From NCBI GenBank assembly GCA_019090795.1, contig JAHRVG010000113.1, positions 1-64,000 of the forward strand: DNA of 64,000 nucleotides, read 5' to 3'. Every line of letters starts with the position of its first letter. Within the stretch, counting starts at the first letter, position 1. Both the position numbers and the translations under genes were made by a program. Positions 1-32,375 of this stretch are shown one piece after another. The notes beneath the pieces are model-generated. The model saw only the letters and a program-made list of their open reading frames with translations, made no database searches and was not told the origin of the DNA. The DNA is from Paracoccaceae bacterium. Its GTDB lineage: Bacteria; Pseudomonadota; Alphaproteobacteria; Rhodobacterales; Rhodobacteraceae.

Positions 1-489
1 AGGAACACGTACAAAAGCACGCACCTTGGCAAAATTAACGTCACCCGTTTCTGCCAACAATTCCCCCAATGCACGCAACCGTCGCCAGCCCGAAATCAAG
101 CCAAAGCCCTCCTCAAGCCTCATCACTTCGATCGGAGTACGCTGCCCATGGCTGCGCAACGAGGCTTTCAACTCGTCCATCTCTGGCCCGCTCAATGTCA
201 CCCTGTCACGGTTCAGGTGGTCGGCTGCGATTTCAGCCAAGGGGATCTCAACCGCTAGCAGCCCTGCCCCCTCAGCCTCTCTCAACCGCTCCGCATCTGT
301 CCGGTTGCGGGCTTGTTCTGCCCGATCTGCCGGGCCAGTGACCACCAATCCGGCCGCGGCCTCACCGGCCACCTGTGCAATCGGCGGCACCATGCTTTTG
401 GTTTCCAGCGGGGGCATGGCATCAAAGCCCTCCTCTAACTGCTTCAACTCCGCCGCATCGGGCGCTGTCAATCTTCTACGCTTCGCCAT
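1..489 (-). CDS. parB: ParB-family partition protein, N-terminal part (gene cut by window edge)
   Basis: Reading the minus strand from an ATG at 489 gives an open frame of 163 codons that runs off the left edge. The translation begins MAKRRRLTAPDAAELKQ and later shows a ParB/sulfiredoxin-type domain with IPLAEIAADHLNRDRV, a SLRSHGQRTPIEV segment and a GFGLISGWRRLRAL segment, the usual ParB N-terminal nucleotide-binding region. The start lies 14 bases inside the end of parA, so the two are translationally coupled, as in parAB operons. The DNA-binding and dimerisation parts lie outside the window. ParB would bind parS (candidate at 1974-1991) and work with ParA in replicon segregation. Confidence 0.85.
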   Translation of the reverse strand, partial: MAKRRRLTAPDAAELKQLEEGFDAMPPLETKSMVPPIAQVAGEAAAGLVVTGPADRAEQARNRTDAERLREAEGAGLLAVEIPLAEIAADHLNRDRVTLSGPEMDELKASLRSHGQRTPIEVMRLEEGFGLISGWRRLRALGELLAETGDVNFAKVRAFVRVP

Positions 490-1831
490 CATTTGCCTCC
501 ATCATCTGGACATCACGCCACCACGAACCAACTAACAATTCCTTAAACTCCGCATAAGTTCGGTCAAACGCTTCCCGGCCCCGCACATAAGTTTCTCGGT
601 TGAAATCGCGATAGTCCGCCTCGTAAATCCCGTTCACCTGTTCTCCCGCCTGGCCAACCAGTGCGGTGTAATCTTGTCGATAGGCATTCATGAAATCGCC
701 AAAATAGGCCTGAATGACATTTGCCATATCCGTCTGTTGGCTGGCATCGAAACGGGTGACAATCGCACGGACTACATCCCATTCAAAGCGCATCTCTGGA
801 AGACCCGCCTTACGCAGGGCTGCGTTTTCTCCGTCCTCAATCGAGGCAAAAGTTGTGTAAAGCATATCAAAGAAACGGCCCGTGGAATCAAATTCCAGAA
901 AGCTGGCCCCGAGCGGGACCAACAGTATATCCGCAGCGGCCAAGGCATTGATTGTCAGGTATCCAAGTGCGGGCGGAGTATCGAGCAGAATCAAATCATA
1001 TTTGTCGAGAATGCCCTCATCCTCCAGAAAATTGGTCAAGGCATCCCAGAGCGCCCAATTACGTAGACCCATACGCCAGACTGGTATCTGAAACTCGGCC
1101 CAATACAGGTTGAGCTGCGCGCCGATCAGATCAATATTGGGCCAATGGGTATTCTGGATCACATCCTCAGCGGTGGTTTCCAGCGCTTCTTGCAGTGTTT
1201 CATCCAGTGGAAGCTCTGCCTCTCCCCGTGCACTGCGCACTTGGTTTTCCATCTGCAGGTTTCGCGCATAATCCTTGGCCATAAGCGGAAAAACTGTTTT
1301 CCATTCGTCCGGCACATCACCACCCAAAATGGATGTCATGGAACCCTGACTGTCGAGGTCGACCACCAGCACTTTGTATCCATCAAGCGCTGCGGACATT
1401 GCAAGATGAGCCGCCGTTGATGTTTTACCAACACCGCCTTTGAAGTTGGCAACAGCCGCGATTTTGGCAGGGACACCTTTCGGGCGATAGGGCAGGTATT
1501 CTTTAGTACTGATTCCTTCGGTCGCAAAGTGGCTGCGTATGGTCAGGATTTCTTCAAGCGTAAACCATTTGGCGCCGCCCTGACCCTCACCCTGTGGCAG
1601 GTCAGGATTTGCCTTTAGCACACGTCGGAAATGGGCGGGCGCTACTGGGAGAAGAAATTTGGTGATTTCCCAAGTAGAGAATTTTCGCAGACGTTTTTTT
1701 CCATCCGGTGCATAGCCGCGCTTAGCCAAATCCTCTCGGCCTTTGGCGCAGAAAGACGCGGCTTTTGCGAATCGAGCTGTATTGATAGGATCGGGTAGTT
1801 TCGCTGCTGCTGCCGCTGGATCAATATTCAT
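476..1831 (-). CDS. parA: ParA/RepA-type partition ATPase
   Basis: The product is a plasmid partition ATPase of about 451 residues. A long N-terminal region (about 1-120) that looks like a helix-turn-helix domain (FSTWEITKFL...HFRRVL) precedes the deviant Walker A motif KGGVGKTS at about 131-138. Further motifs are VLVVDLDSQGS (A') and YDLILLDTPPALGY (Walker B). The N-terminal HTH type is typical of ParA proteins that also repress their own promoter. I chose ATG 1831 (MNIDPAAAAAK); an in-frame TTG at 1933 would add 34 residues, and neither start has a strong ribosome site. It overlaps parB by 14 bases and is transcribed away from the replication initiator gene. Confidence 0.9.
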   Translation of the reverse strand: MNIDPAAAAAKLPDPINTARFAKAASFCAKGREDLAKRGYAPDGKKRLRKFSTWEITKFLLPVAPAHFRRVLKANPDLPQGEGQGGAKWFTLEEILTIRSHFATEGISTKEYLPYRPKGVPAKIAAVANFKGGVGKTSTAAHLAMSAALDGYKVLVVDLDSQGSMTSILGGDVPDEWKTVFPLMAKDYARNLQMENQVRSARGEAELPLDETLQEALETTAEDVIQNTHWPNIDLIGAQLNLYWAEFQIPVWRMGLRNWALWDALTNFLEDEGILDKYDLILLDTPPALGYLTINALAAADILLVPLGASFLEFDSTGRFFDMLYTTFASIEDGENAALRKAGLPEMRFEWDVVRAIVTRFDASQQTDMANVIQAYFGDFMNAYRQDYTALVGQAGEQVNGIYEADYRDFNRETYVRGREAFDRTYAEFKELLVGSWWRDVQMMEANDGEA

Positions 1832-1973
1832 ATACGGGGGGAGGGGATGTTCGGGGGATTTTGCCACAATATGCCTGCCTAAATGATATTCGCTTGTTTG
1901 AATGATGTTAGCGCTAATTGGATACTTTATCAAAGCTGAAATATCTTTTGCGGCAGGATATTCAAATGTAGAC

Positions 1974-1991
1974 GGTTTCGCGTGCGAAACC
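1974..1991. promoter_or_regulatory. Candidate parS partition site
   Basis: The 18-mer GGTTTCGCGTGCGAAACC consists of two perfect 8-base arms around a GT centre. It lies upstream of parA, between the divergent parAB and rep genes, where centromere-like sites of alphaproteobacterial partition systems are commonly found. It resembles the repABC-type parS pattern GTT-N4-GC-N4-AAC except for the central GT. Only one full copy was seen in the window. It could instead be a parAB operator, or serve both roles. Confidence 0.6.
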
Positions 1992-2417
1992 TCTTGGAAT
2001 TACTAGAATGAGGAACACAAGAAAACGTTTTATTAGTTTATTAGTTTTAATAGGTTTAGCCCTACAAAGCAGTTTATTAACAAAGAGTTATGTATGTTTG
2101 GGTATCCAGTTACAGGATGAAGGGGTGCTAAAAGCAGGACCAAGAGTACAAGAATACAGGGGGAAAGGTACCCTAATGCGGGATAGCAGGTTCTGATTCT
2201 CGGGGGGACATTTAGAGTTCATTTTACTGCATTATTGACTCCATTATTGGGTTTTAGGAGCCTAAACAGACTCTGAAACCCGTGGAGAACGTTAAAGAAT
2301 CTACTTCAACTGACTAAAGGTACCTGTTTGCAGGAGTCAGAAAAAAGGGCGCGGGAACCCAAAGATGTTTGAAGTTGGGTACCTTTTGTGCCATGTTGCA
2401 GAAAAGCGACCGGACAA
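1992..2417. other. Intergenic region upstream of rep, candidate replication origin
   Basis: About 430 bases with no convincing gene. The part at 2010-2095 is visibly AT-rich with several TTTATTA-like runs. AAAGGTACC occurs at 2164-2172 and 2316-2324 and inverted (GGTACCTTT) at 2378-2386; CATTATTG is repeated at 2230-2237 and 2242-2249; TGACTCC at 2236-2242 is matched by inverted GGAGTCA at 2333-2339; and TTTAGG-AG-CCTAAA forms a small dyad near 2253-2266. Short repeats plus an AT-rich stretch next to a Rep_3 gene fit an origin with initiator-binding sites, but no clean set of iterons was found, so this is a suggestion. Confidence 0.4.
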
Positions 2418-3671
2418 ATGAAACAACAAACCACCCGTAAACCAGAATTAACAGGCGCTTTGCGCCGTGATTCCGTGAAAAAGCACGTGGGTGCAATCCA
2501 TGTAAGTGGCAAACTTTCTTTGCTGCAACGTAAATTGTCCAATGTTTTGCTGCTGAATGCCTATGACACGCTGACCACTTCGCAAAGCCATTCGATTGAT
2601 GCCAAAACCCTTTGTTTGATGGTGGGGTATAATTCCAATGATGTGGCAACCTTGCGGGGCGCGCTTAAGTCTTTGGCAGAGACCGTCGCTGAGTGGGATA
2701 TGCTGGATGAGGATGGAAAGCAGGAATGGGGGGTTTCTGCGCTGCTGTCCTATGCCAAACTGCGTGAAGGGGTTTGTGAATATGCCTATTCGCCTGTATT
2801 GGCACAAAAGCTGCATGATCCCAAAATGTTCGCTCTGATCAATGTGAATATCCAGCGTAATTTTTCTTCGGGCCATGGTCTTGCGCTGTATGAGAATTGC
2901 TATCGGTTTGTGCGAACCGGATCGACTGGTTGGTGGTCCCTTGATCTGTTTCGCAAATTTATGGGCGTAGAGGAAAGCGCCTATTATGCATCTTTCAAAC
3001 ACTTGAATGCCAAGATTATCAAGCCCGCTGTAACTGAGGTGAACAAGACGTCAAACATCACCATCACGCCCGAGTTTGCCAAGAAGGGCAGGGCGGTAAC
3101 AGAGGTTCGGTTTTTGATCCGCGAGAACCCGCAACTGGCAATGTTTGACATTGATGACAGCGATGGGCTGCGCAAAAGTTCTTTGTATGAACGGCTGCGC
3201 GGGCAGGGAGTTTCTGACCGACTGGCGCGCCAGTGGATCAGTGAACATGGCGAGGAATATATCGCAGAGAAGCTGGCCTATGTGGCGGGCAAGAATGGGG
3301 TTAAGTCTACGCTTGGGTATTTGTCAGCGGCGATCCGTAAAGACTATGTTAAGGAGACCCCGCCTAAGCCTTCTCCTGAGGCTGTGGCGGTTGTTGCAGA
3401 GCGGGCGCAAGCGAGCCGGGACATCGAGCAACAAGAAGACACACGCATCGCAGCGCGGTTGGCGCGGCAGGCGCGGTTTGCAGTGGTGCGAGGCCTGATC
3501 GAGGCGCGCAACCCAACGCAGCGGGATGCAGACAAGCGGTTGTTTGTCGCGACGCTAGAAGATGAGTTGGCGCGCGAGGATTTTCGCAATCGCGGCTGGG
3601 AATCAGCACTGAACGCACAGGCAATTTTCGATTTCTGGTGCGAACTGGAGCCAGAGGCGTTTGAAGGGTAG
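2418..3671 (+). CDS. repB: Rep_3-family plasmid replication initiator (RepB type)
   Basis: A 417-residue protein with the winged-helix initiator layout of Rep_3/RepB proteins. The N-terminal part (VSGKLSLLQRKLSNVLLLNAY) is the typical initiator opening, followed by a second winged-helix region with LALYENCYRFV, WWSLDLFRKFMGVEE and FKHLNAKIIKPAVTEVNKTSNI. The C-terminal third is charged and alanine/arginine-rich. I chose ATG 2418 (MKQQTTRKPEL) over an in-frame ATG at 2388 because the extra ten residues (MPCCRKATGQ) look non-coding and overlap the repeat region; the ribosome site is weak in both cases. Divergent from parAB and convergent with dctM, whose stop is 14 bases away. It marks the window as part of a RepB-type replicon. 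Confidence 0.85.
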   Translation: MKQQTTRKPELTGALRRDSVKKHVGAIHVSGKLSLLQRKLSNVLLLNAYDTLTTSQSHSIDAKTLCLMVGYNSNDVATLRGALKSLAETVAEWDMLDEDGKQEWGVSALLSYAKLREGVCEYAYSPVLAQKLHDPKMFALINVNIQRNFSSGHGLALYENCYRFVRTGSTGWWSLDLFRKFMGVEESAYYASFKHLNAKIIKPAVTEVNKTSNITITPEFAKKGRAVTEVRFLIRENPQLAMFDIDDSDGLRKSSLYERLRGQGVSDRLARQWISEHGEEYIAEKLAYVAGKNGVKSTLGYLSAAIRKDYVKETPPKPSPEAVAVVAERAQASRDIEQQEDTRIAARLARQARFAVVRGLIEARNPTQRDADKRLFVATLEDELAREDFRNRGWESALNAQAIFDFWCELEPEAFEG

Positions 3672-3685: not shown

Positions 3686-4999
3686 CTACATCGAGTTTGG
3701 TAACACCAGCACGACCCAAGGAACCAACACAATCACGGCGAGCCGGAATAGGTCTACGATCCAGAACGGGGTGACGCCCTTGAAAATTGTGGCGGTTGAA
3801 ACGTCCCCGACCACACCCTTGAGCACAAAGACATTGAGACCCACAGGCGGTGTAATCAGCGAGATTTCGGTGACTACCACCACGACAATACCAAACCAGA
3901 CCGGATCAAAACCAAGACTGACCACCAGAGGGAAGAAAATCGGAACGGTGAGCAGCAGCATCGAGAGGCTCTCAAATACCGTGCCCAGAATGATGTAGGC
4001 GAGGATGATCATCAACATCACGGCCATTGGCCCAAGGTTCAGGCTGGTGACGAGGGCGAGCAGGCCTTCGGGCAGGCCCGCTAGGTTGACGAAGTTGGAG
4101 AAAATCCACGCGCCGATAAGTACTACGAACAGGGAAGAAGAGGTTTGGGCGGTCTCGATCAGAACCTCAAAGGTACCTTTGATCGTGAGAGTGCCACGTG
4201 ACAGGGCAATCAGGAAAGCCCCGGCAGCCCCCATGCCTGCCGCTTCGGTCGGTGAAAACGAGATGTGCAGAGGCCAGACGTTCAGCGCGCCGTACAGCCC
4301 GCCAATGACGACAAAAAACAACAGCAGAACGGCCCAGACGCCGCGCAGAGCGGTGAGGCGCTCGCCCCAGCTGGAGTGCGTGCCGGCAGGGCCTGCCTTG
4401 GGGTCGCGCATCACGGTGTAACGCACAGCAATGAGGTAGAATACAACGCCAAGCAGGCCAGGAATGATGCCTGCGATGAACAGCTTGCCAATGCTGGTTT
4501 CGGTCAGCAGTCCGTAGATCACCAGAATGACGCTTGGCGGGATCAGGATGCCAAGTGTACCGCCCGCCGCGATGGAGGCCGTAGAGAGGCGATCCGAATA
4601 GCCGTATTTACGCATTTGTGGCATGGCGACCTTGGACATGGTGGCAGCTGTGGCCAGGGATGATCCGCAGATGGCCGAGAATCCGGCGCAGGCGCAGATG
4701 GTCGCCATGGCCAACCCGCCGCGCATATGGCCCAAAAACACATAGGAAACCTGATAGAGTTCGCGCGACAACCCACCTTTGTTCACAAACAAGCCCATCA
4801 GGATGAACAGCGGCACCACCGAGAGACCGTAATCTTGGGCGGTGTCGATCACCAGACGGCTGGCCATGGAAATCGAGGCCTTGAAATTTGTGAGTTGTGA
4901 GTAGCCGGTGATACCGACAATGCCCATGGCAATGGCGATTGGCATCCGCATGAAGACGAGTAAAAGGACAGCAGCAAAGCCGATAATTGCGAGGGTCAT
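3686..4999 (-). CDS. dctM: TRAP transporter large permease (DctM/SiaM type)
   Basis: A 437-residue, highly hydrophobic protein with about a dozen membrane segments. Typical DctM signatures are present: FAAVLLLVFMRMPIAIAMGIVG at the start, CGSSLATAATMSKVAMPQM, GGTLGILIPPSVILVIYGLLTETSIGKLFIAGIIPG, and near the end TVFESLSMLLLTVPIFFP and EISLITPPVGLNVFVLKG. It is the ion-coupled membrane subunit of a tripartite solute uptake system. The start is ATG 4999, which overlaps the dctQ stop as ATGA; upstream in-frame residues lie within dctQ and look non-coding. It is the last gene of dctPQM. Confidence 0.93.
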   Translation of the reverse strand: MTLAIIGFAAVLLLVFMRMPIAIAMGIVGITGYSQLTNFKASISMASRLVIDTAQDYGLSVVPLFILMGLFVNKGGLSRELYQVSYVFLGHMRGGLAMATICACAGFSAICGSSLATAATMSKVAMPQMRKYGYSDRLSTASIAAGGTLGILIPPSVILVIYGLLTETSIGKLFIAGIIPGLLGVVFYLIAVRYTVMRDPKAGPAGTHSSWGERLTALRGVWAVLLLFFVVIGGLYGALNVWPLHISFSPTEAAGMGAAGAFLIALSRGTLTIKGTFEVLIETAQTSSSLFVVLIGAWIFSNFVNLAGLPEGLLALVTSLNLGPMAVMLMIILAYIILGTVFESLSMLLLTVPIFFPLVVSLGFDPVWFGIVVVVVTEISLITPPVGLNVFVLKGVVGDVSTATIFKGVTPFWIVDLFRLAVIVLVPWVVLVLPNSM

Positions 5000-5508
5000 A
5001 TAGCGGGAACCTTGTGAGGGGCGATAATAAGCAAGAGGCCGCGCAGGATCATAATCAGCGCAGTGACAAAAGTGGCTAGGGCGATGAACCAACCGATATA
5101 GAATTGGGGCATGTGCAAGTATTCGGTTATGTCACCGTAGGAGCGGGACCGCTCGGCCAGTTCATAAACGCGCCACGCGGGCCACAGCAGAACAACGCCG
5201 CAGATCGTATTGATCAATATGTTGCGGAGCTTGCCGAGTGTTGCTGAAAACAGGGGATCCATCAGATCCACCACGATGTGCTGGCCTTTCCATGTGACCA
5301 TGGGCAAGGAGGAAAACACGATGATTGCCATGAACAGACGGGTCAGTTCGGTGGCAGATTCGATTGGGTTGTTGGCAAGGCTGCGCAGCAATACATCAAA
5401 AAAGGTCATCGCCATCAGCAGGAACAGGGTAACAGCGGCCAGATAAGATGGCAGTTGTACCAGCTTTGCAAGCAGAGAATGCTGTGTTTGATCGGCTTGA
5501 TTTGTCAT
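4996..5508 (-). CDS. dctQ: TRAP transporter small permease (DctQ type)
   Basis: A 170-residue protein with four hydrophobic segments (about 18-38, 55-75, 95-112 and 138-162), the usual DctQ size and topology. The region EFTRL-like ESATELTRLFMAIIVFSSLPMVTWKGQHI matches the conserved central part of the family. It pairs with DctM in the inner membrane. ATG 5508 has a GGGGAA ribosome site nine bases upstream. It is separated from dctP by a strong stem-loop and overlaps dctM by four bases. Confidence 0.9.
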   Translation of the reverse strand: MTNQADQTQHSLLAKLVQLPSYLAAVTLFLLMAMTFFDVLLRSLANNPIESATELTRLFMAIIVFSSLPMVTWKGQHIVVDLMDPLFSATLGKLRNILINTICGVVLLWPAWRVYELAERSRSYGDITEYLHMPQFYIGWFIALATFVTALIMILRGLLLIIAPHKVPAI

Positions 5509-5588: not shown

Positions 5589-6611
5589 TTATTGGCTCTT
5601 CATGGTTTCAGTGATGAAGGCATGCGCGGCTGCGCCGTCGACACCTTTGGCAGTTACTTCAGCAATCACAGAAGTAACGATTGGTGCTGCAAGTTTGGCA
5701 TAGGCAGCGGTGTCCGCGGCTGAAGATTCGGTGTAGGAGTTGCTTGGATCATCATCCAGTGCTTTGCGGCCAATCGCATCGCTTTGATCCCAGGCATTGC
5801 CAACCATTTTTGACAAGGTTTCGCCGAATACTTTGTTCAGCGCCGCCTGATCTTCGGCTGAAAAACTGGCGAATTTGTCTTCGTTCATGATCAGCGCGAA
5901 AGAACCGCGATAGAAACCACCGGGAACGGTATAGGTGTGCTGGGCAACTTCATTTAGCTTAAAGCCCTGCTTGCCTTCCATTGGCATCATCACTCCGTCC
6001 GCCGCATGAGAGGCCAGTGTTTCATATACCTTGGGGGCAGGTACGCGGATGCCGGTTGCGCCGAGGGCTGCGCCCACGTCACCGGAAACGCCGCCGCCGA
6101 GACGCAATTTCATGCCGGAAATTTCGCTCAGCGACGAAATTTTAGTCGCTGAGTGCAGCACACCGGGGCCGTGGGTATGCAGGGCGATCAGCTTGACGCC
6201 CCGATGCTCGTTTGCAGAAGCAAAAAACTTCTCGTGGGCACGCCATGCGGTAACAGAGGCTGCCTCTGCATTGCCTTCATAGCCCGGCAGTTCGATCATT
6301 TTGGTGGCGGTGAAACGGCCCGGTGAATAACCGTGGAAAATCCAGGTAACATCGGCGGCACCATCTTGAATCAGGTCAAATTGTGCAGGCGGGCTGCCAA
6401 GCTTGTATTTTGTCTGGGTGGTAACGCGGCCCTCTGTGGCCTCTTCTACCATTTTGGTAAAGGCGGGCCACATGATGGCATTCATGCCGTGGGTTGGCGG
6501 TGCCCAAGTGGAAATTGTTATCGTTGCTTCGGCCGCAAGTGCCGACACTGAAGTGCTGGCCGCAATCGCAAGCCCCGCTGTCAGTTTCAATAGTGTTGTT
6601 TTCAGTTTCAT
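5589..6611 (-). CDS. dctP: TRAP transporter periplasmic solute-binding protein (DctP type)
   Basis: A 340-residue secreted binding protein. Residues 1-26 form a Sec signal peptide (MKLKTTLLKLTAGLAIAAS... ending at ALA-A). The mature part opens with TITISTWAPPTHGMNAIMWPAFTKMVEE and has the KLRLGGGVSGDVGAALGA segment, where DctP proteins carry the conserved ligand-binding arginine, and HAADGVMMPMEG. ATG 6611 has a good GGGAGA ribosome site; an upstream frame start at 6650 would add 13 non-signal-like residues. The ligand is unknown. The promoter-operator at 6765-6813 nearly duplicates that of the phenylacetate operon, so an aromatic or related carboxylate is my inference. Confidence 0.92.
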   Translation of the reverse strand: MKLKTTLLKLTAGLAIAASTSVSALAAEATITISTWAPPTHGMNAIMWPAFTKMVEEATEGRVTTQTKYKLGSPPAQFDLIQDGAADVTWIFHGYSPGRFTATKMIELPGYEGNAEAASVTAWRAHEKFFASANEHRGVKLIALHTHGPGVLHSATKISSLSEISGMKLRLGGGVSGDVGAALGATGIRVPAPKVYETLASHAADGVMMPMEGKQGFKLNEVAQHTYTVPGGFYRGSFALIMNEDKFASFSAEDQAALNKVFGETLSKMVGNAWDQSDAIGRKALDDDPSNSYTESSAADTAAYAKLAAPIVTSVIAEVTAKGVDGAAAHAFITETMKSQ

Positions 6612-7143
6612 TTTCTCTCCCTTGGTGTTGATGCCAGACAAGCAGGCCATTTTTGCGGTGCCCTTTGGGCGTTGCCGCAGGTGGTTACAAGGCTATTTCC
6701 GTTTTTGTTGCGTGCCGCATTGCTGTTGCAAACCCCCTCGGAAAGAGCCAAATCAGTGGCGTCAATTAGTCGACCGTGCGGTCGGTTATGTAGCGAAAAG
6801 TGATTCGTTGCAAGTGCAAGAATCATCCTTGGTCAATATGGGCGGTTCTGACTATTGTGATTTGGTACAATAATTGCTCACTCAAAAATGGCCAATTGTG
6901 CTGCGGACGTGGAGAAAACACAGCAAATTACCATGGTAAATGGTTTCCACAGGAGCCGCTTTAAGTCAACAAATTTCATTTCATACACAATATTTTATAT
7001 CTAAAGCAATAGCTGGCATAGGGTGCCGCGCCAGACCAAAATCTTGCAATGTGGCCTTACATTAGTGGGAATTGATCCTAGTTATGTACAGGATCAAAAA
7101 AGAAAGCTACTAAAGCGAAACACCGGATAGCGAGGAGTTTCCC
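6612..7143. other. Intergenic region between dctP and the patatin-like gene
   Basis: About 530 bases without a supported gene. It carries the dctP promoter-operator (6765-6813). Right of that the sequence is AT-rich (about 6840-7110) and contains the 12-base palindrome TTACCATGGTAA at 6928-6939, which could be another operator. The last bases hold the GAGGAG ribosome site (7132-7137) for the patatin-like gene. No RNA gene or mobile element remnant was recognised. Confidence 0.5.
6765..6813 (-). promoter_or_regulatory. Promoter and palindromic operator upstream of dctP
   Basis: Read on the minus strand: a -35-like TTGCAA (6808-6813), 17 bases, a -10-like CATAAC (6785-6790), and at 6771-6784 the perfect palindrome CGACCG-TG-CGGTCG. 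From the -35 to the end of the operator it matches the region in front of the thiolase-paaABCDE operon (10652-10701) at most positions with no gaps. The palindrome type is typical of TetR-family repressors; the TetR gene at 22593-23189 is the likely regulator by context. It lies about 150 bases before dctP, so a leader RNA is implied. Confidence 0.7.
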
Positions 7144-10355: not shown

Positions 10356-10651
10356 TTTTGTCTCCTGAATTCGCTGACGCAAGCGGGATAAGTGCCTGCT
10401 CCGGTTCAGATATCCCTTTGGTTCAGGATAAGGGCAGTCTCATCTTCTAGCACGTCACTCGTCGCAACTTCAAACCTGTCTTAGCAGATATGTGTTTTTT
10501 CAATGGCTGCTTGGTCACGACTGCTAATATTTTGGAAACTTGTTCAGTTCCAAACAAAACACTGTATGTTTGTGGTAGCGCATGTTGGCGGGATAATGTT
10601 GACAAAGCGTTACACAAAATCGAGAAGCGCAAAAAAACTGTAACATAACAC
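10356..10651. other. Intergenic region, divergent MBL gene / paa operon
   Basis: Together with the promoter-operator at 10652-10701 this forms a 369-base gap between divergent genes. A 72-codon frame on the minus strand (10447-10665) has no family features, no ribosome site and overlaps the paa promoter, so I do not call it. The MBL gene's promoter must lie here, but no clear -35/-10 pair stood out. Confidence 0.4.
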
Positions 10652-10701
10652 TTGCGCCGAATCATGTATCACTACATAACCGACCAAGCGGTCGACTATT
10701 A
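10652..10701 (+). promoter_or_regulatory. Promoter and palindromic operator of the thiolase-paaABCDE operon
   Basis: A -35-like TTGCGC (10652-10657) and -10-like CATAAC (10675-10680) with 17-base spacing are followed at once by the operator ACCGACC-AAG-CGGTCGACT (about 10679-10697). The whole block matches the dctP promoter (6765-6813, minus strand) at most positions without gaps, including CGAATCA in the spacer. Placement of the operator right after the -10 fits repression. The thiolase ATG is 24 bases further on. Confidence 0.72.
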
Positions 10702-10724: not shown

Positions 10725-11927
10725 ATGGATGCTTTTATCTGCGATGCTACTCGGACACCGATCGGGCGTTATGGCGGGGGCCTCTCGTCAGTTCGCACTG
10801 ATGATCTTGCGGCGCTGCCAATCTCGGCATTGATGGCACGCAATCCGGATGTGGATTGGGCCTCTGTTGATGATGTGATCTATGGGTCGGCCAATCAGGC
10901 GGGCGAAGATAACCGGAATGTGGCGCGGATGGCCGCCTTGCTTGCAGGCTTGCCGGTGGATGTGGCCGGGATCACTGTGAACCGGTTGTGTGCTTCGGGT
11001 CTGGATGCGGTGGGCTTGGCTGCACGCGGGATCAAAGCAGGTGATATGGATCTGGTGATTGCGGGCGGTGTAGAAAGCATGAGCCGAGCGCCCTTTGTGG
11101 TGGGCAAGGCAACTTCGGCATTTAGCCGGGCGGCAGATATGTTTGACACCACCATTGGCTGGCGTTTTGTGAACCGCAAGATGAAACAGATGTACGGTAC
11201 GGATTCCATGCCCGAAACGGCGGATAATGTGGCAACAGAATATAATATCAACCGCGCGGATCAGGATGCCATGGCGGAACGCTCGCAGGCCCGTTGGGCG
11301 AAAGCCAAGGAAGCGGGTGTTTTCGAGGATGAGATCACACCGGTTTCTGTGCCCCAGCGACGTGGCGATCCGGTGATTGTGGATACGGACGAGCATCCGC
11401 GCCCCGGTATGCTGGCGGAAAAACTGGGCAAGATGCGCGGCATCAACGGCGCTGATCTGACGGTGACGGCGGGCAATGCTTCGGGTGTGAATGACGGCGC
11501 GGCGGCGTTGTTGATTGCCAGCGCGGCGGCGGCTGAAAAGAACGGTTTGAAACCGATGGCGCGCATTGTCGGCATGTCTAGCGCGGGTGTTGCACCCCGG
11601 GTTATGGGCATCGGGCCGGTTCCGGCAACGCGCAAGGTTTTGGCGCGTGCGGGCCTGACAATCGAGGATATGGACGTGATCGAGCTAAACGAGGCATTCG
11701 CCGCGCAGGGCATTGCCACCTTGCGGGAATTGGGTGTGCCTGATGATGCGGCGCATGTGAACCCGAATGGGGGCGCAATTGCCATCGGCCATCCGCTCGG
11801 TATGTCAGGCGCGCGGCTGGTTCTGGCTGCGGCCTATCAATTGCAACGCACTGGTGGGCGCTACGGCCTGTGTACCATGTGCGTGGGTGTGGGGCAGGGG
11901 ACTGCCCTGATCATAGAAAGGGTCTAA
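10725..11927 (+). CDS. paaJ: 3-oxoadipyl-CoA/3-oxo-5,6-didehydrosuberyl-CoA thiolase
   Basis: A 400-residue thiolase. The acylation cysteine lies in [14 protein letters not shown], and the C-terminal motifs [23 protein letters not shown] and [10 protein letters not shown] carry the other active-site residues. The sequence type is PcaF/PaaJ: it splits 3-oxoadipyl-CoA to succinyl-CoA and acetyl-CoA and, in phenylacetate breakdown, also 3-oxo-5,6-didehydrosuberyl-CoA. It leads the paaABCDE operon, with paaA starting three bases after its stop, and sits behind the repressor-type operator at 10679-10697. The context favours PaaJ over PcaF. Confidence 0.9.
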
Positions 11928-11929
11928 CG

Positions 11930-12922
11930 ATGTATGCACAGATGGTAAAAACGGCAGGTTCCGGTGTTAAAGACCGTGACGAGATGTCAGAACAGGAACA
12001 GGATTTTCAGGACCGGATCGACCGGGGTGAGAAGATTGAACCCAAAGACTGGATGCCGGATAACTATCGCATTACTCTGATCCGGCAAATTGGCCAGCAC
12101 GCCCACTCGGAAGTGGTCGGCCAATTGCCGGAAGGCAACTGGATCACTCGCGCCCCGACACTAGAGCGCAAGGCAATCTTGTTAGCGAAGGTTCAGGATG
12201 AGGCCGGGCACGGGTTGTACCTGTACGGCGCGGCTGAAACGCTGGGGGTTAGCCGTGACGAGATCACCGAGGATCTGCTGGCTGGGCGAATGAAGTATTC
12301 GTCGATCTTCAACTATCCAACCCTGAATTGGGCCGATATGGGCGCGGTTGGCTGGCTGGTGGATGGCGCTGCGATTATCAATCAGGTGGCGTTGCAGCGC
12401 ACATCCTATGGCCCATATGCCCGCGCAATGGTGCGGATTTGCAAAGAAGAAAGCTTTCACGCGCGTCAAGGCTATCACATCATGATGAAGATGGCCTCGG
12501 GCACACCAGAGCAAAAGGCAATGGCACAGGATGCGCTGAACCGTCTGTGGTATCCGGTGCTGATGATGTTTGGGCCGTCGGATAAAGAAAGCGTGCACAC
12601 AGCGCAATCCATGGCTTGGAAAATCAAGATGGATACCAATGATGAGCTGCGCCAAAAATTTGTTGATCAGACGGTTCAGCAGATTGAATATCTAGGGCTG
12701 GAATTGCCGGACCCCAATATCAAGTGGAATGATGAAACCAAGCAGTACGATTATTCCGATCCCGATTGGACCGAATTTTTTGACGTGATCAAAGGCAACG
12801 GCCCTTGCAACGTTGACCGGATGGCGGCGCGTAACAAGGCTTGGGATGATGGCAAATGGGTGCGTGACGGGTTGATGGCCCACGCTGAGAAAAAGGCAGC
12901 CGCCAAAGTGGCAGCACAATAG
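11930..12922 (+). CDS. paaA: 1,2-phenylacetyl-CoA epoxidase subunit A (catalytic)
   Basis: A 330-residue diiron monooxygenase subunit. Iron-binding ExxH-type segments are visible: [13 protein letters not shown] and [12 protein letters not shown]. It is the active-site subunit of PaaABCE, which converts phenylacetyl-CoA, oxygen and NADPH to ring-1,2-epoxyphenylacetyl-CoA. ATG 11930 comes two bases after the thiolase stop with a GAAAGGG ribosome site inside the thiolase end; a longer frame from 11870 only reads through thiolase. Length matches the family. Confidence 0.96.
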
Positions 12923-12932
12923 GAGAATGAGC

Positions 12933-13217
12933 ATGAAACACGAATGGCCCTTGTGGGAAATCTTTATTCGCGGTCAACATGGCATGAGCCACCGGCATGT
13001 GGGTTCGCTGCACGCGCCCGACGCGGAAATGGCAATCAAGAACGCGCGCGATGTGTACACGCGGCGCAATGAGGGCGTTAGCATATGGGTGGTAGAGGCC
13101 GTGAATGTTTCGGCGTCCTCGCCCGAAGATAAAGGCGCGTTTTACGAGCCGTCCAATTCCAAGGTCTACCGTCACCCGACGTTCTTTGACATCCCCGATG
13201 AAGTGGGGTCCATGTGA
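12933..13217 (+). CDS. paaB: 1,2-phenylacetyl-CoA epoxidase subunit B
   Basis: A 94-residue protein beginning MKHEWPLWEIFIRGQHGMSHRHVGSLHA, the classical PaaB signature. PaaB bridges the A/C dimers of the epoxidase. Two ATGs are in frame; AGGAG at 12921-12925 is seven bases before ATG 12933 but only one before ATG 12927, so I choose 12933. It shares one base with paaC. Confidence 0.95.
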   Translation: MKHEWPLWEIFIRGQHGMSHRHVGSLHAPDAEMAIKNARDVYTRRNEGVSIWVVEAVNVSASSPEDKGAFYEPSNSKVYRHPTFFDIPDEVGSM

Positions 13218-13972
13218 TGGACGCAAGCCTGTTTCAATATCTGTTGCGCCTTGGCGACAACACGCTGGTGCTGGGGCACCGGGGTTCTGAGTGGTGCGGC
13301 CATGCGCCGGTGCTGGAGGAAGACATTGCCCTAGCCAACACTGCGCTTGATCTGATCGGGCAAACCCAGTTGTGGCTGGGTCTGGCCGCAGAGGTCGAGG
13401 GCAAGGGCCGCGATGCGGATCAACTGGCAATGCAGCGCGATATCTGGGATTTCCGTAACCTGTTGCTGGTAGAATTGCCCAACGGTGATTTTGGCCGAAC
13501 TTTGATGCGCCAGTTCCTGTTTGATGCCTGGCAGGTGATTAATCTGGGACGGTTGATGAATTCATCCAACCCGCGCGTAGCCGAGATTGCGGCCAAGGCC
13601 AGCAAGGAAGCGGCCTATCATGTGGAACGTTCAGCTGACACGGTTGTGGGCCTTGGCGATGGCACCGAGGAAAGCCATGTGCGGATGCAGGCGGCGCTGG
13701 AATATCTGTGGCCTTATGTGGGCGAAATGTTTCTGGGTGACGAAGTGGACGCCGCCATGGTCGCGGCTGGCATTGCACCCGATCCGGCCAGCCTGCGCGC
13801 CGAATATGATGCGCTGATCGGGCGGGTTATAAAGACCGCAACGCTGGAAATTCCGGACAGTAGTTTTGCCCATAAAGGGGGTAAAACCGGCGCGTTTCAC
13901 ACAGAGCATCTGGGGCATATGCTGTGCTCGATGCAGTGGTTGCAACGGGCTTATCCGGGGGCGAGCTGGTAG
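13217..13972 (+). CDS. paaC: 1,2-phenylacetyl-CoA epoxidase subunit C (structural)
   Basis: A 251-residue ferritin-like subunit. It opens MDASLFQYLLRLGDNTLVLGHRGSEWCGHAPVLEEDIALAN and shows the AYHVERSADTVVGLGDGTEESH segment usual for PaaC. It forms the structural partner of PaaA in the epoxidase core. ATG 13217 overlaps the paaB stop as TGATG; an in-frame GTG lies one codon earlier. Length fits the family. Confidence 0.95.
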   Translation: MDASLFQYLLRLGDNTLVLGHRGSEWCGHAPVLEEDIALANTALDLIGQTQLWLGLAAEVEGKGRDADQLAMQRDIWDFRNLLLVELPNGDFGRTLMRQFLFDAWQVINLGRLMNSSNPRVAEIAAKASKEAAYHVERSADTVVGLGDGTEESHVRMQAALEYLWPYVGEMFLGDEVDAAMVAAGIAPDPASLRAEYDALIGRVIKTATLEIPDSSFAHKGGKTGAFHTEHLGHMLCSMQWLQRAYPGASW

Positions 13973-13975
13973 CTT

Positions 13976-14434
13976 ATGCAGCCCTCGGTAGAACAGGTTT
14001 GGGAGTGGCTGGACGCAGTGCCGGACCCTGAAATCCCGGTGATCTCGCTGGTTGATCTGGGGATCATCCGTGAGGTAGCGTGGCGGAATGATACGCTAAC
14101 GGTTGCGGTGACGCCGACCTATTCCGGTTGTCCTGCCACCTCGATCATCAATCTGGACATTGAAACGGCATTGCGCGGCCATGGCATTGAAAAGCTGGAA
14201 CTAAAACGCCAACTATCGCCACCGTGGACCACTAATTGGTTGAGTGAAAAAGGCCGCGAAAAGCTGGAAAAGTACGGCATTGCCCCGCCAACAGCGGCGG
14301 GGGGGCCTGAACGTTGCCCGCAATGTGGAAGCGTTGATCTGAAAAAAGTGAGCCAGTTTGGCTCAACACCCTGCAAGGCGGCTTGGCGGTGTAACGACTG
14401 CTTGGAACCTTTCGACTATTTTAAATGTATCTAA
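13976..14434 (+). CDS. paaD: PaaD, MIP18/DUF59-family Fe-S maturation factor of the epoxidase
   Basis: A 152-residue protein. Residues about 1-100 are the DUF59/MIP18 domain (VPDPEIPVISLVDLGIIREV, TPTYSGCPA). The C-terminus carries a zinc-ribbon pattern, CPQCGS and CNDC, around GSTPCKA. PaaD is needed for cluster or metal maturation of the phenylacetyl-CoA epoxidase. ATG 13976 follows paaC by three bases. The order paaABCDE is canonical. Confidence 0.95.
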   Translation: MQPSVEQVWEWLDAVPDPEIPVISLVDLGIIREVAWRNDTLTVAVTPTYSGCPATSIINLDIETALRGHGIEKLELKRQLSPPWTTNWLSEKGREKLEKYGIAPPTAAGGPERCPQCGSVDLKKVSQFGSTPCKAAWRCNDCLEPFDYFKCI

Positions 14435-14444
14435 GGAGCGCGCC

Positions 14445-15506
14445 ATGGCCCGTTTTCACGACCTGACAGTGACTGACATCCACAAAACCATCCGCGACGC
14501 GGTGGTGGTGACACTGGCCCCGGACACGCCAGAGGATTTTGATTTTATTCCCGGTCAATACTTGACCTTCAAGCGCGATTTCGACGGTGCGGAGCTGCGC
14601 CGCAACTACTCGATTTGTGCTGGCAAAGATGATGGCATTTTACAGATCGGCATCAAGCGGGTTGATGGCGGCACGTTTTCCACTTGGGCCAACGAGGGCT
14701 TGAAAGTTGGCGACACATTGCAGGCGATGGAACCGACGGGAAAGTTTCACACACCAATTAATGAAGGGGCGGCCAAGAACTATCTGGGTTTTGCCGGTGG
14801 TTCGGGAATAACACCAGTTCTGTCGATCCTGAAAACCGTGCTGATGCGCGAACCGGCTAGCAGTTTCACGCTGGTGTATGCCAATCGGGGTGTCAATTCG
14901 ATCATGTTCCGCGAGGAGTTGGAGGATCTGAAAAACACCCACATGGGGCGTTTCAACGTGATCCATATTCTGGAAAGTGACGCACAAGAAATCGACTTGT
15001 TTACGGGTCGGATTGATGGTGAAAAATGCAAAGTTTTGTTTTCCAAATGGATAGATATCGAGAGCGTGGATACGGCATATATCTGCGGGCCGGAACCGAT
15101 GATGCTGGCCATTTCTGCGGCATTGAAGGACCACGGTTTAAGCGACGAACAAATCAAGTTTGAATTGTTCGGTGCAGCACAACCGGGACTGGCGGCCCAT
15201 AAAGCAGAGTCGGTGGCGAATGCGCGCGCGGTGGGGGCTGAGGCCTCGGTGATCATCGACGGAACCGCGCGGGCTGTAACTATTGAAAAGGGCCAGAGCA
15301 TACTGGATGCAGCGTTGGCCCATGATCTGGATGCGCCTTTTGCCTGTCGCGCTGGCGTGTGTTCCACCTGTAAATGCAAGGTGCTAGAGGGCGAGGTCGA
15401 TATGCGTACCAATCACGCGCTGGAGGATTACGAGGTGGAGCAAGGCTATGTGCTCAGCTGCCAAAGCGTGCCGGTTTCAAAGCGGATTGTGGTCGAATAC
15501 GAGTAA
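14445..15506 (+). CDS. paaE: Phenylacetyl-CoA epoxidase reductase subunit
   Basis: A 353-residue flavin reductase. The FAD domain has RRNYSIC, the NAD(P)H domain has GFAGGSGITPVLSI and YICGPEPMM, and a C-terminal plant-type ferredoxin domain carries CRAGVCSTCKCKVLEG and a final LSCQ. It passes electrons from NADPH to PaaABC. ATG 14445 has an AAGGAG ribosome site eight bases upstream; the longer frame from 14358 reads through paaD. It is the last gene of the operon and converges on the alpha/beta hydrolase gene. Confidence 0.95.
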   Translation: MARFHDLTVTDIHKTIRDAVVVTLAPDTPEDFDFIPGQYLTFKRDFDGAELRRNYSICAGKDDGILQIGIKRVDGGTFSTWANEGLKVGDTLQAMEPTGKFHTPINEGAAKNYLGFAGGSGITPVLSILKTVLMREPASSFTLVYANRGVNSIMFREELEDLKNTHMGRFNVIHILESDAQEIDLFTGRIDGEKCKVLFSKWIDIESVDTAYICGPEPMMLAISAALKDHGLSDEQIKFELFGAAQPGLAAHKAESVANARAVGAEASVIIDGTARAVTIEKGQSILDAALAHDLDAPFACRAGVCSTCKCKVLEGEVDMRTNHALEDYEVEQGYVLSCQSVPVSKRIVVEYE

Positions 15507-15526: not shown

Positions 15527-16318
15527 TTACGACGTGGGCGGCCCAATGAAATCAACAATAGCGGCCAGAACCCGCGCTGGTTTTTCGATATGTGGCGCGT
15601 GTTTGCAATTTTCCAGAATCAGCCTCTCGAACGGTGATTCCAGATTGGTCTCAAGCGTATCTATCTGTGCCAGCGTGCCATATTGATCGTCCTGTCCCTG
15701 AATGGCCAATACAGGAACGCGGATGTAGGGGATCGCGTCCTCGATGTTCCATGCCTTGAAACCAGGGTCTAGCCAAGCATCGTTCCAGCCGCGAAACGTT
15801 GCTTCGGGATCACGATGATGTTTGGCGAGGCGGGTGCGCAGATCGCTGGTTGCAAAGGTGTTTTTGGCCGCAGTAATGGCGTTCAATCCCATTGGTTCGG
15901 TGAAGAAATGCGGCGCGATCAGGCACAGGCGGTTGACGCGAAAATCTTGCAGGCTACCCATGTAGACCGCTGCAATCGAGGCCCCGTCACTGTGACCGAG
16001 CAGGCTGCCCTTGCGAAAGCCGATGGCGTCCAGAACTTTTGGCAGCACATCCAGTGCCTCCCGGGTAATGAAATCCAGCGGTAGCGGCAGCGATGCCGGA
16101 TCAGACGCGCCATACCCTGCGCGGGAGTAGGCGAAAACGCCGTGACCGGTTTTATCGGCCAACTGCTGTGGGAAATCTCTCCACTGATTGCACGAACCCA
16201 GCCCCTCGTGCAGCAAAACGATCGTCGGAGCCTTGTCGGGGGACGGGCCCCAGACGCGATATTCCAGACGGGTGTTGTTGATACTCAGATGGGCGGTTGT
16301 GTCTGCGAGCCATTTCAT
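15527..16318 (-). CDS. Alpha/beta-fold hydrolase
   Basis: A 263-residue alpha/beta hydrolase. TIVLLHEGLGSCNQW gives the oxyanion region, LLGHSDGASIAAVY the GxSxG-type nucleophile elbow (GHSDG), and NCKHAPHIEKP the catalytic histidine; the aspartate is probably in IQGQDDQYG. Similar proteins act on esters or C-C bonds, sometimes in aromatic catabolism; the substrate is not predictable. It is transcribed in the same direction as, but 77 bases after, the paaK copy at 16396-17712, so it may be the last gene of that operon. Confidence 0.85.
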   Translation of the reverse strand: MKWLADTTAHLSINNTRLEYRVWGPSPDKAPTIVLLHEGLGSCNQWRDFPQQLADKTGHGVFAYSRAGYGASDPASLPLPLDFITREALDVLPKVLDAIGFRKGSLLGHSDGASIAAVYMGSLQDFRVNRLCLIAPHFFTEPMGLNAITAAKNTFATSDLRTRLAKHHRDPEATFRGWNDAWLDPGFKAWNIEDAIPYIRVPVLAIQGQDDQYGTLAQIDTLETNLESPFERLILENCKHAPHIEKPARVLAAIVDFIGPPTS

Positions 16319-16395
16319 TGCAAGTGGCCTTTCTGGATCGGATCATTTTGTCAGTTTAACATACCATAGCCGGTTTAGCGCCACATCTCACTATT

Positions 16396-17712
16396 CTACC
16401 CCCGCTTATCTATCACCCGCACAGCTTTGCCCTCGGAGCGCGGTAATTCCCCTTGGCGTTTAGCGATTACATCACAGGAAATCCCGATGATTGATTTGAT
16501 CTGGTGACGCACCTGCTCTGCTTTGGCGCTCAGGTTTGCTTCGGTTGGCGGCACCTTTGGATCTAACTCCACCTCAACCGCTATCGCGTCCATTGCGCCC
16601 TTGCGGTTCCGGATAATCTGGTAGTGTGGTGCGATGCCGTCAACGCTGACTAATACCGCTTCGATCTGGCTGGGGTAAACATTGACGCCGCGAATGATCA
16701 TCATGTCGTCGTCGCGGCCCGTTACGCGCAGGATACGTACATGGGTGCGGCCACAGGCACAGGGTTCGTCGGTCAGACGGGTGATGTCACGGGTGCGATA
16801 GCGGATCATTGGCATGGCTTCTTTGGTCAGGGTCGTTACGACCAGCTCGCCGGATTCTCCCATCGGCAGGGGGTCCAGTGTTTCCGGGTCAATCACCTCA
16901 AACAGGAAATGATCCTCCCAGCCGTGCAGGCCCGTGCGGGCGGTGTCGCATTCACAGGCTACCCCCGGCCCCATGATTTCAGACAGGCCGTAAACGTCAA
17001 CCGAGGTGATCCCCAACTGTTGGTCCAGTGCCGCGCGCATTTCTTCGCTCCAAGGCTCCGCGCCAAAGATGCCGCGTCGCACTGGCAGGGCCGCAATATC
17101 CACTCCCATTTCTTGGGCAACCTCGGCAATACTAAGGGCATAAGATGGTGTGGAACACAGAATATCCGCGCCAAAATCCTTGAGCAACATCACTTGCCGT
17201 TCGGTGCCGCCGCCTGAAACCGGCACCACCACCGCGCCAAGCCGCTCTGCCCCTTGATGGGCCCCCAGCCCGCCGGTGAACAAGCCGTAGCCATAGGCGT
17301 TATGGATCACATCACCGGGGCGCGCGCCTGCTGCGGCCATGGAGCGGGCCATCAAGTCAGACCAACGATCCAGATCACCCTTGGTATAACCCACAACGGT
17401 GGGCTTGCCAGTTGTGCCGGAGGATGCATGCAGGCGGCGCAATTTGATGTGGGGCATGGTGAACATGGCGAAAGGGTAATTGTCGCGCAGATCGGTTTTC
17501 ACGGTAAATGGGAAATTCTTCAGATCGGCCAGCGTTTTGAGGTCTTGTGGCTTGAGGCCAACCGCGTCGAATTTCTTGCGATAATGCGGCACGTTCTCAT
17601 AGACTTGGTCCAGTGACCAGCGCAGCCGTTCCAGTTGGATATCCGCAAGGCTTTTGCGGGAGAGGGTCTCGACCTCATGGTCGAACATGAAATCGGCGGG
17701 GGGCTTAGTCAT
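16396..17712 (-). CDS. paaK: Phenylacetate-CoA ligase, copy 1 (in the PadBC-like operon)
   Basis: A 438-residue adenylate-forming enzyme of the PaaK family. Signatures are LHASSGTTGKPTVVGYT (phosphate loop), NAYGYGLFTGGLGAH, VYGLSEIMGPGVACEC and GRDDDMMIIRGVNVYPSQIE, with the C-terminal PRSEGKAVRVIDKR. It activates phenylacetate with ATP and CoA. ATG 17712 has a CGGAGA ribosome site. It ends an operon led by the thioesterase and PadB-like genes rather than sitting with paaABCDE, and a second PaaK lies at 23193-24503. It may serve the PadBC-like enzyme or prefer another arylacetate. Confidence 0.93.
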   Translation of the reverse strand: MTKPPADFMFDHEVETLSRKSLADIQLERLRWSLDQVYENVPHYRKKFDAVGLKPQDLKTLADLKNFPFTVKTDLRDNYPFAMFTMPHIKLRRLHASSGTTGKPTVVGYTKGDLDRWSDLMARSMAAAGARPGDVIHNAYGYGLFTGGLGAHQGAERLGAVVVPVSGGGTERQVMLLKDFGADILCSTPSYALSIAEVAQEMGVDIAALPVRRGIFGAEPWSEEMRAALDQQLGITSVDVYGLSEIMGPGVACECDTARTGLHGWEDHFLFEVIDPETLDPLPMGESGELVVTTLTKEAMPMIRYRTRDITRLTDEPCACGRTHVRILRVTGRDDDMMIIRGVNVYPSQIEAVLVSVDGIAPHYQIIRNRKGAMDAIAVEVELDPKVPPTEANLSAKAEQVRHQIKSIIGISCDVIAKRQGELPRSEGKAVRVIDKRG

Positions 17713-17736
17713 TTTTTCTCCGTTTCAAGGATGTCG

Positions 17737-24524: not shown

Positions 24525-24950
24525 TCATTCGTCAAACTGGGTGCCTCTGACGGCGCGGGACATGCCGCGAAATTCCGCGATCAATATGCCTTCTTGATTT
24601 GTGACTTTCACGTCGTATATGCCGTTTTTGCCGTTCAGCGATACTTCGCTTGCGTGGGCCGTCAGGGTGTCGCCCAGTTTGCCAGGTGCCAGATAGCTGA
24701 TGACGTTGTGCATTGCCAGTGTAGATTGGTTGCGGCTGTTGCAGGCATGGGCAAATGCCGTGTCGGCCAGCGTAAAGGTGATGCCGCCATGACAAATCCC
24801 GTGACTGTTTGCGTGGTGGGGTTGGACAATCATAGAAATTGCAGCCTTGCCTTCATCCGCATCGACCATGCTCATGCCGAACCAGTCGAACACCTTGCCG
24901 TTGGAAATCATTACTTCTGCAACTTTTTCTGCGCGTTGTTTGGGGGTCAT
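24525..24950 (-). CDS. paaI: Hydroxyphenylacetyl-CoA thioesterase PaaI
   Basis: A 141-residue hotdog thioesterase with the PaaI motif NSHGICHGGITFTLADTAFAHACNS, where the HGG region and following acidic residue form the active site. In phenylacetate catabolism PaaI rescues CoA from dead-end ring-hydroxylated intermediates. ATG 24950 overlaps the paaG stop (ATGA). Confidence 0.93.
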   Translation of the reverse strand: MTPKQRAEKVAEVMISNGKVFDWFGMSMVDADEGKAAISMIVQPHHANSHGICHGGITFTLADTAFAHACNSRNQSTLAMHNVISYLAPGKLGDTLTAHASEVSLNGKNGIYDVKVTNQEGILIAEFRGMSRAVRGTQFDE

Positions 24951-25827: not shown

Positions 25828-25846
25828 AAGGGAGGGAGAGTTGAGA

Positions 25847-32373: not shown

Positions 32374-32375
32374 AA

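Follow-up and report, generated by a model that had tools for sequence, protein, structure and literature searches.

Phenylacetate is a central aromatic intermediate, and to our knowledge the systems by which marine alphaproteobacteria take it up are poorly assigned. The locus analyzed here, a window of 64,000 nucleotides from contig JAHRVG010000113.1 of a Paracoccaceae bacterium, raises the question of whether a TRAP transporter operon (dctPQM), the promoter of which resembles that of a nearby phenylacetate (paa) operon, belongs to the same regulon, and what it imports. Operators held in common with a catabolic pathway allow the substrate of a TRAP system to be predicted in a testable way where databases give the system only a generic name. 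The reading favored here, to which we assign a probability of roughly 70%, is that dctPQM would be a member of the PaaR regulon and a phenylacetyl-CoA-induced importer of phenylacetate or a close aromatic acid, which most likely acquired a paaJ core promoter.

Gene content and the promoter block of dctP and paaJ

Domain analysis revealed that the minus strand of the window carries the genes of a DctPQM-type TRAP transporter in one operon, namely dctP for the solute-binding protein (5589-6650; PF03480), dctQ for the small permease (4996-5508; PF04290), and dctM for the large permease (3686-5092; PF06808, with TIGR00786 above its cut-off). As read from the sequence, dctP likely starts at an internal ATG at about 6611, after GGGAGA, rather than at the first ATG of the open reading frame at 6650. 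On the plus strand, paaJ/pcaF, encoding 3-oxoadipyl-CoA thiolase (10725-11927; TIGR02430 above cut-off), is followed by the epoxidase genes paaA, (paaB), paaC, paaD, and paaE (11870-15506; TIGR02156, TIGR02158, and TIGR02159 above cut-off, and PaaE-type domains), the profile evidence covering paaA, C, D, and E, with paaB outside the scan. Farther along, the minus strand encodes a paaG-like enoyl-CoA isomerase (24947-25738; PF00378; 85% to its counterpart in the paa cluster of G215, another genome of the genus), the phenylacetate-CoA ligase PaaK (23193-24503; TIGR02155 at 702.6 bits, cut-off 646.3), and, directly downstream of paaK, a TetR-family regulator (22593-23189; PF00440 and PF17932 TetR_C_24), which is the PaaR candidate. 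Divergent from these, on the plus strand, lie a cytochrome P450 gene of the paa cluster (25841-27031; PF00067), paaZ (27041-29071; Aldedh and MaoC domains; 63-87% to the paaZ of relatives' paa clusters), and the gene of a PaaX-like regulator (29096-29854). The P450 of this P450-paaZ-paaX unit recurs in the paa clusters of relatives (71-81% in 7 loci).

Directly beside dctM, positions 476-3671 encode ParA-type and Rep3-type replication proteins, which suggests that the paa and TRAP genes lie on a plasmid-like replicon. Between paaE and paaR, the minus strand (15527-22043) encodes an alpha/beta hydrolase and a second ligase of the PaaK type, which at 606.8 bits falls short of the 646.3 required by TIGR02155, together with a 4Fe-4S/NrfD-like protein and a molybdopterin oxidoreductase of 911 aa; these genes presumably resemble those of anaerobic phenylacetyl-CoA oxidation (PadBCD). 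A three-subunit molybdenum hydroxylase (30139-33706; MoCoBD, 2Fe-2S, and FAD subunits) adjoins the paa cluster, and this region has about 79% DNA similarity to the same region in G215.

The original prediction held that the dctP and paaJ promoters agree without gaps, and this was confirmed: between the dctP block (6764-6815, minus strand; CTTGC-CGAATCA-CTACATA-operator-CTA) and the paaJ core promoter block (10650-10701, plus strand), 39 of 50 bases are identical in ungapped alignment (6813-6764 on the minus strand against 10652-10701 on the plus strand), and CTTGC, CGAATCA, CTACATAACCGACC, and CGGTCGACTA are identical in register. The top ungapped score between the two intergenic regions was 32, beyond all of 200 dinucleotide-preserving shuffled pairs (maximum 15, mean 10.3). 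The whole-genome motif scan by which the prediction was to be checked (3,626,690 bases in 141 contigs) found the core ACCGACCNNNCGGTCGACTA exactly twice, at the dctP and paaJ promoters, and no further place under 3 mismatches, the next best match having 3. The promoter of the phenylacetate operon was indeed present at 10652-10701; the first gene behind it, starting at 10725, is paaJ/pcaF, and paaA is the second. A sigma-70 consensus scan listed neither of the two core promoters, so the -35 and -10 elements named here are assigned from conservation. Coincidence, considered as the main explanation of the match, was rejected on the basis of the shuffles, the uniqueness in the genome, and the conservation described below.

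The match might also stem from a recent duplication of promoter DNA without regulatory function, dctPQM being in effect constitutive or otherwise controlled. Rearrangement is plausible on a replicon where plasmid-type Rep and ParA genes adjoin dctM; however, the differences between the two blocks are concentrated in the three bases at the operator center and in parts of the spacer, and a young copy would be uniformly similar and reach beyond about 50 bases. We therefore regard such a duplication as highly improbable.

Candidate PaaR boxes and a long-spaced repeat at paa promoters

Within the common block, a candidate PaaR box was recognized at dctP (ACCGACCGCACGGTCGA; 6770-6786, minus strand, intergenic), without mismatch to the consensus ACCGAMCGNNYGGTCRA, and at paaJ (ACCGACCAAGCGGTCGA; 10679-10695, plus strand), with 1 mismatch. 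A third candidate box, GCCGAACGGTCGGTCAA (25781-25797, plus strand, 1 mismatch), lies between the divergent units paaG(-paaK-paaR) and P450-paaZ-paaX. The asymmetric consensus was derived from sites in the window and in relatives, so box counts are not independent of it in those loci from which it was built. It replaced an earlier scan with a symmetric PaaR palindrome (up to 5 mismatches), which had given many chance matches. Within 1 mismatch, ACCGAMCGNNYGGTCRA occurs at nine places in the genome, three of which are the dctP, paaJ, and paaG/P450 promoters of the window, while the other six are all internal to ORFs from mechanical calling, of which four measure 323-496 aa and two just 96 and 84 aa. 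At 2 mismatches the box was not enriched genome-wide (41+48 matches against 54+51 for the reversed control), so it is the placing of the closest matches that is informative. The segment between paaE and paaR (15527-22043) holds no box within 2 mismatches.

The box was conserved at the paa promoters of relatives. Upstream regions of paaJ were compared for the window, 16 family genomes, and Dinoroseobacter shibae. Of these 18 regions, 13 carry the box within 2 mismatches, whereas none of 360 shuffles did; two more have it at 3 mismatches and three are without it (L119, L122, and L123). The motif CTTGCNNCGAATC is exact in 10 of the 18 regions and has one mismatch in another. A like box was found in 13 other loci; it precedes paaG in 11 of them and the paaK-paaR unit in the other two, L058 and L088. 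In L058 and Dinoroseobacter the box precedes the paaK-paaR unit with no paaG seen beside it.

For Burkholderia, the available text of a review (PMC9493321) gives ACCGACCGGTCGGTT as the PaaR operator and phenylacetyl-CoA as the inducer for both the PaaR and the PaaX type of regulator. Compared with the first 14 bases of that operator, the boxes at dctP, paaJ, and paaG have 2, 3, and 2 mismatches, respectively, and the paa promoters have an inverted repeat similar to ACCGACCGGTCGGT, which is kept in relatives. As expected of a PaaR regulon, a TetR-type regulator (PF00440, PF17932) is encoded with the paa genes, adjoining paaK, and TetR proteins 60-61% identical to it adjoin paaK in Ruegeria and Dinoroseobacter as well. 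No NCBIfam TetR model reached its cut-off for this protein, and a PDB search returned mostly generic TetR names among the best 60 of 92 matches. The dctP/paaJ box thus fits the operator of a PaaR of the TetR family, and co-regulation of dctP with the paa genes by PaaR is likely. That a single regulator would act on dctP and paaJ, as the original prediction had it, is well supported by the similarity of the operators, their recurrence at the paa promoters of relatives, and the TetR gene.

A second element, the long-spaced inverted repeat GTTAC(N26)GTAAC, was found just upstream of the paaJ -35 region (10609-10644, plus strand). It recurs within 1 mismatch in 17 of the 18 paaJ regions. The spacing is 26 in 15 of them, whereas Dinoroseobacter has 25 and G208 has 27. 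Eleven of the 18 regions carry the repeat exactly at spacing 26, compared with 1 of 3600 shuffles. The 18 include the paaJ of L123, which stands behind paaG in one direction; all three elements are lacking there. The repeat is absent from the dctP promoter of the window, where TGATTC(N13)GAATCA covers the -35 region instead (6801-6825, minus strand). The half-sites of the latter are those of the E. coli PaaX box, TGATTC(N27)GAATCA (PMC9493321, in the text available); at the dctP promoter they stand at spacing 13, and the box with spacing 27 was not found there. GAATCA as a PaaX box common to both promoters was weakened as a candidate, since GTTAC(N26)GTAAC is better conserved at paaJ and missing at dctP. 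Another exact GTTAC/GTAAC pair lies at 48616 of the window, with a spacing outside 25-27.

The PaaX-like protein is the only PF07848 match of the genome and has the Pfam PaaX domain; it scores 111 bits with the equivalog model TIGR02277, below the cut-off of 264.55. A PaaX-domain protein is encoded in all six genomes tested besides the window's own. We infer that GTTAC(N26)GTAAC is the PaaX-type site of this group. TetR and PaaX-like regulators are both known kinds of paa repressor, and the genes of both lie at most about 23 kb from the site.

The repeat is less frequent than the reversed control (16 forward matches, compared with 67, in 12 relatives; 4 compared with 17 in the window's own genome at spacing 25-27), so what makes it informative is its position. 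Two of the four places in the window's own genome are outside called ORFs, one at paaJ and the other upstream of an iorA-like ORF, where the repeat (contig C11 of G000, 43528-43563; L142 and L162) ends 41 bases before the ORF. The iorA-like ORF fits the alpha subunit of indolepyruvate ferredoxin oxidoreductase, with 602.7 bits for an incomplete stretch and a cut-off of 650.9. According to PMC9765128, this enzyme turns phenylpyruvate into phenylacetyl-CoA, and the iorA-like gene is likely a further member of the phenylacetyl-CoA regulon.

In the 12 relatives, the 16 exact places of the repeat were distributed over paaJ (nine), dctP (two), an enoyl-CoA hydratase-like gene (one, upstream), and elsewhere (four, two of them inside ORFs). 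At two of the nine paaJ places (L150 and L151), the mechanical ORF caller extends an ORF across the repeat. Among these genomes, G126 and G073 have no exact copy, and G038 has one, inside an ORF. G200 and G239 each have two exact repeats, one at paaJ and one at dctP; 196 kb separate them in G200, and in G239 they lie on different contigs. Both genomes were picked because the repeat at dctP was already visible, so that the new result is the lack of a third site there. In these two genomes dctPQM is near a PaaX-like gene instead. In G208, the spacing is 27 at both paaJ and dctP, and one other place in the genome has that spacing.

DctP homologues, substrate class, and origin of the dctP promoter

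A match to DctP at E 1e-60 was present in 33 of 198 family genomes, and 11 of 33 genomes of the genus had a match (the window's own genome being counted in both); phage records gave no match at E 1e-20. In the 198 family genomes, the best DctP places beyond the window (at least 47% identity) number 22, and 11 of these lie inside paa clusters, defined as at least two of paaR, paaK, paaZ, paaA, paaC, and paaJ nearby; the arrangement is also seen in a named record, Ruegeria sp. THAF33 (L086). In the genus member G213, the order is paaG-paaJ-paaK-paaR-dctPQM, all in one direction. The earlier statement that TRAP uptake of phenylacetate is not the standard route is therefore too strong for this family, the more so as the related TarP_Rhp was solved with 4-hydroxyphenylacetate, according to the structure title.

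Upstream regions of dctP (450 bases) were compared at 46 loci, comprising 34 ingroup (at least 47% identity) and 12 outgroup loci (at most 40%). Eight of the 34 ingroup regions carry the PaaR box within 1 mismatch and three others the long-spaced repeat, 11 in all, whereas neither element was found in the 12 outgroup regions; in shuffles, the box within 2 mismatches occurred in 4 of 1150 and the repeat in 0 of 1150. Three of the eight box loci (L057, L058, and L066) are not independent, as their intergenic region is shared with a divergent paaG or paaK. The locus L018 (= L125, L140) was left out because its contig ends inside dctP, L020 (= L126 = L139) was counted once, and L106, which repeats the L065 promoter, was likewise counted once. 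Neither element was found in 23 of the 34 ingroup regions, among them eight of the 11 family loci inside paa clusters; four of these eight have another palindrome at dctP. The palindrome ATGGTTACAAnnnnAACCAT is present at the dctP promoter of seven in-cluster loci (L056, L057, L060, L061, L065, L066, and L086), the scan allowing 1 mismatch to the pattern; in the window nothing matched it at up to 4 mismatches.

Five dctP homologues of the genus that lie away from paa genes carry the PaaR box or GTTAC(N26/27)GTAAC. The box is upstream of dctP in L134 (G211) and L135 (G242), on stretches where no protein of the window's paa set besides dctPQM was matched; the upstream neighbors scanned were TerC in both and an FAD oxidoreductase in L134. 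The paa cluster of G211 encodes a PaaR orthologue (74%). These sites, the linkage to paa genes, and the structural class of DctP lend indirect support to the predicted import of phenylacetate or another substrate of the pathway.

The AlphaFold2 model of DctP (pLDDT 89.8, from 23 sequences) had its best fold match in 4p56 (Z 44.0, 36% identity), which is also the best sequence match among solved structures (E 2.3e-66). The next fold matches, at Z 37-41, are mostly marine TRAP proteins titled aromatic-acid-specific and the TarP set, the titles of which name coumarate, cinnamate, caffeate, ferulate, and 4-hydroxyphenylacetate as ligands. Eleven of the first 14 fold matches have an aromatic-acid label or belong to the TarP set, and the titles listed for 4p56, 5im2, and 4nap stop short of the ligand. 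The first titles with other ligands appear at Z 31, the ligand not being visible for 5im2 (40.7), 4nap (39.6), and 4n6d (34.4). By fold and by sequence, DctP is thus closest to solved aromatic-acid TRAP proteins. The model supports an aromatic acid as the ligand, without a choice of phenylacetate among the aromatic acids, and with the linkage and operators taken together dctPQM likely imports phenylacetate or a near relative.

PaaR might nevertheless control dctPQM while the cargo is mandelate, phenylglyoxylate, phenylpyruvate, 4-hydroxyphenylacetate, or a cinnamate. The closest structure, 4p56, is 36% identical to DctP and has a ligand that we take to be mandelate; the window encodes a second PaaK-like ligase and a molybdopterin oxidoreductase pair; and the homologue in L018 is followed by a TPP-dependent enzyme. 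That enzyme, however, best fits PRK08199, with no benzoylformate decarboxylase model among the best 25 of 55 matches, and DctP homologues stand among paa genes in 11 family loci. Such a different cargo is rather unlikely, and phenylacetate, or an acid close to it, is the substrate preferred here.

Phylogenetic analysis of DctP grouped the window with L018 (support 100/100) and L019 (98/91), while the DctP proteins inside paa clusters formed a separate group of 18 rows (99/99), in which the window DctP is not nested. L018 is a contig end of G215, and the dctP promoter lies beyond it. In that genome, which also has a paa cluster (PaaA 94%, at 30879-31829), the DctP homologue (85%; 63086-63922) is about 32-33 kb from paaJ/paaA, beside the TPP enzyme of PRK08199 type and a LigB-type dioxygenase. 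Over 58 bases, the window dctP promoter is identical to the window paaJ promoter at 45 positions and to the G211 paaJ promoter at 45 also, compared with 39 between the paaJ promoters of the window and G211 and 36 between those of the window and G215. The dctP promoter therefore resembles one more paaJ promoter of the genus, which fits capture of a core promoter together with its PaaR box. Most likely, the TRAP operon of a sister subclade took the paaJ core promoter and PaaR box without the upstream GTTAC(N26)GTAAC. In L134 (= L129) and L135 (= L127), a perfect palindrome, GTTGCAAATGCAAC, lies near the dctP promoter. Because it resembles TTGCACTTGCAA of the window dctP, part of the -35 match may descend from dctP and not from paaJ, and the -35 part of the dctP promoter may have been inherited from an element like GTTGCAAATGCAAC that already belonged to dctP.

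Boxes of this kind could also serve many of the TetR regulators that control CoA-ester pathways, and like boxes occur upstream of dctP in L052 and L071, where fewer than two paa genes lie on the 20-kb stretch. The two promoters could accordingly be under different TetR proteins with a common TetR-type box, matching by coincidence or convergence. This is quite unlikely, given that the match spans the -35 region, the spacer element, the -10 region, the flank CTA, and the spacing between them, and that dctP and paaJ agree at 45 of 58 positions, more closely than the window paaJ promoter agrees with two paaJ promoters of its own genus (36-39).

Proposed regulation of uptake and relation to known systems

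Under control of both promoters by PaaR, the TetR repressor encoded at 22593-23189 would, without aromatic substrate, occupy the box just downstream of the -10 region at paaJ and dctP and the third box between paaG(-paaK-paaR) and P450-paaZ-paaX, and transcription would be blocked. DctPQM would import phenylacetate, or a closely related aromatic acid convertible to phenylacetyl-CoA by the pathway; PaaK would make phenylacetyl-CoA, and PaaR would be released. Ring-cleavage enzymes, activating ligase, repressor, and importer would then rise together, forming a feed-forward loop on uptake. The importer is probably switched on together with the phenylacetate pathway.

A wider reading, which we put forward tentatively, is that aromatic-acid TRAP importers of one family were recruited to the phenylacetyl-CoA regulon of Rhodobacteraceae several times, independently and through different cis-routes. 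Taken jointly and with the same reserve, these could comprise capture of the paaJ core promoter (window), a separate PaaR box (G211, G242), the repeat with co-varying spacing at paaJ and dctP (G200, G239, G208), and joining in one direction (G213 and the paa-cluster subclade). If repeated recruitment were true, TRAP transport would be the usual phenylacetate uptake route in the family. The PaaR box and GTTAC(N26)GTAAC also provide a site set for mapping the phenylacetyl-CoA regulon, including the iorA-like gene, across Rhodobacteraceae. The parts of the system are of known kinds, and what is new is their combination, the proposed promoter capture, and the conserved long-spaced repeat.

Among the matches listed from open-licence papers, no title or abstract start assigned a TRAP operon to the regulon of PaaR or PaaX. 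PaaR and PaaX are described together in one gene context in several groups by PMC13186573, the main text of which, as available, does not contain the words TRAP and transporter. In Ruegeria pomeroyi a phenylacetate transporter has been inferred (PMC8027193, available text). The closest regulatory parallel is the PaaR regulon of Burkholderia cenocepacia (BCAL0210; PMC2770484, PMC9493321), where a TetR-type repressor acts with ACCGACCGGTCGGTT in several paa promoters; the boxes at dctP, paaJ, and paaG share 12, 11, and 12 of 14 bases with it, respectively. In the excerpts of these papers, the Burkholderia repeat is found between the -35 and -10 elements, and transporters are not mentioned, whereas here the box is just after -10 and covers a TRAP operon. 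As in the E. coli PaaX regulon (PMC9493321, available text), paa promoters have a long-spaced inverted repeat and a PaaX-domain gene is present (7 of 7 genomes tested); unlike there, the conserved repeat at paaJ is GTTAC(N26)GTAAC, the TGATTC/GAATCA spacing at dctP is 13, and the window PaaX-like protein is below the TIGR02277 cut-off.

Regarding the transporter, DctP is like the TarP-type proteins (7nr2, 7nra, 7nsw, 7nrr, 7ntd, and 7nqg) and 4p56, 5i7i, and 5iga (Z 37-44 over about 310 residues, 23-36% identity), although it is at best 36% identical to this set and the likeness is one of predicted fold and sequence. The 4-hydroxybenzoate TRAP system of Roseovarius nubinhibens (PMC12442348) likewise has its genes beside an aromatic cluster (pca) and is up with its substrate; substrate and pathway differ from those proposed here, and the excerpted text names no shared operator. 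In gene content, the window resembles Roseobacteraceae paa clusters such as that on the plasmid of Ruegeria sp. THAF33, where TetR, PaaK, PaaG, DctPQM, P450, and PaaZ occur together; there dctPQM lies between paaG and the P450 gene, whereas in the window it precedes paaJ by about 4 kb, lies on the other strand, and encodes a DctP of another subclade.
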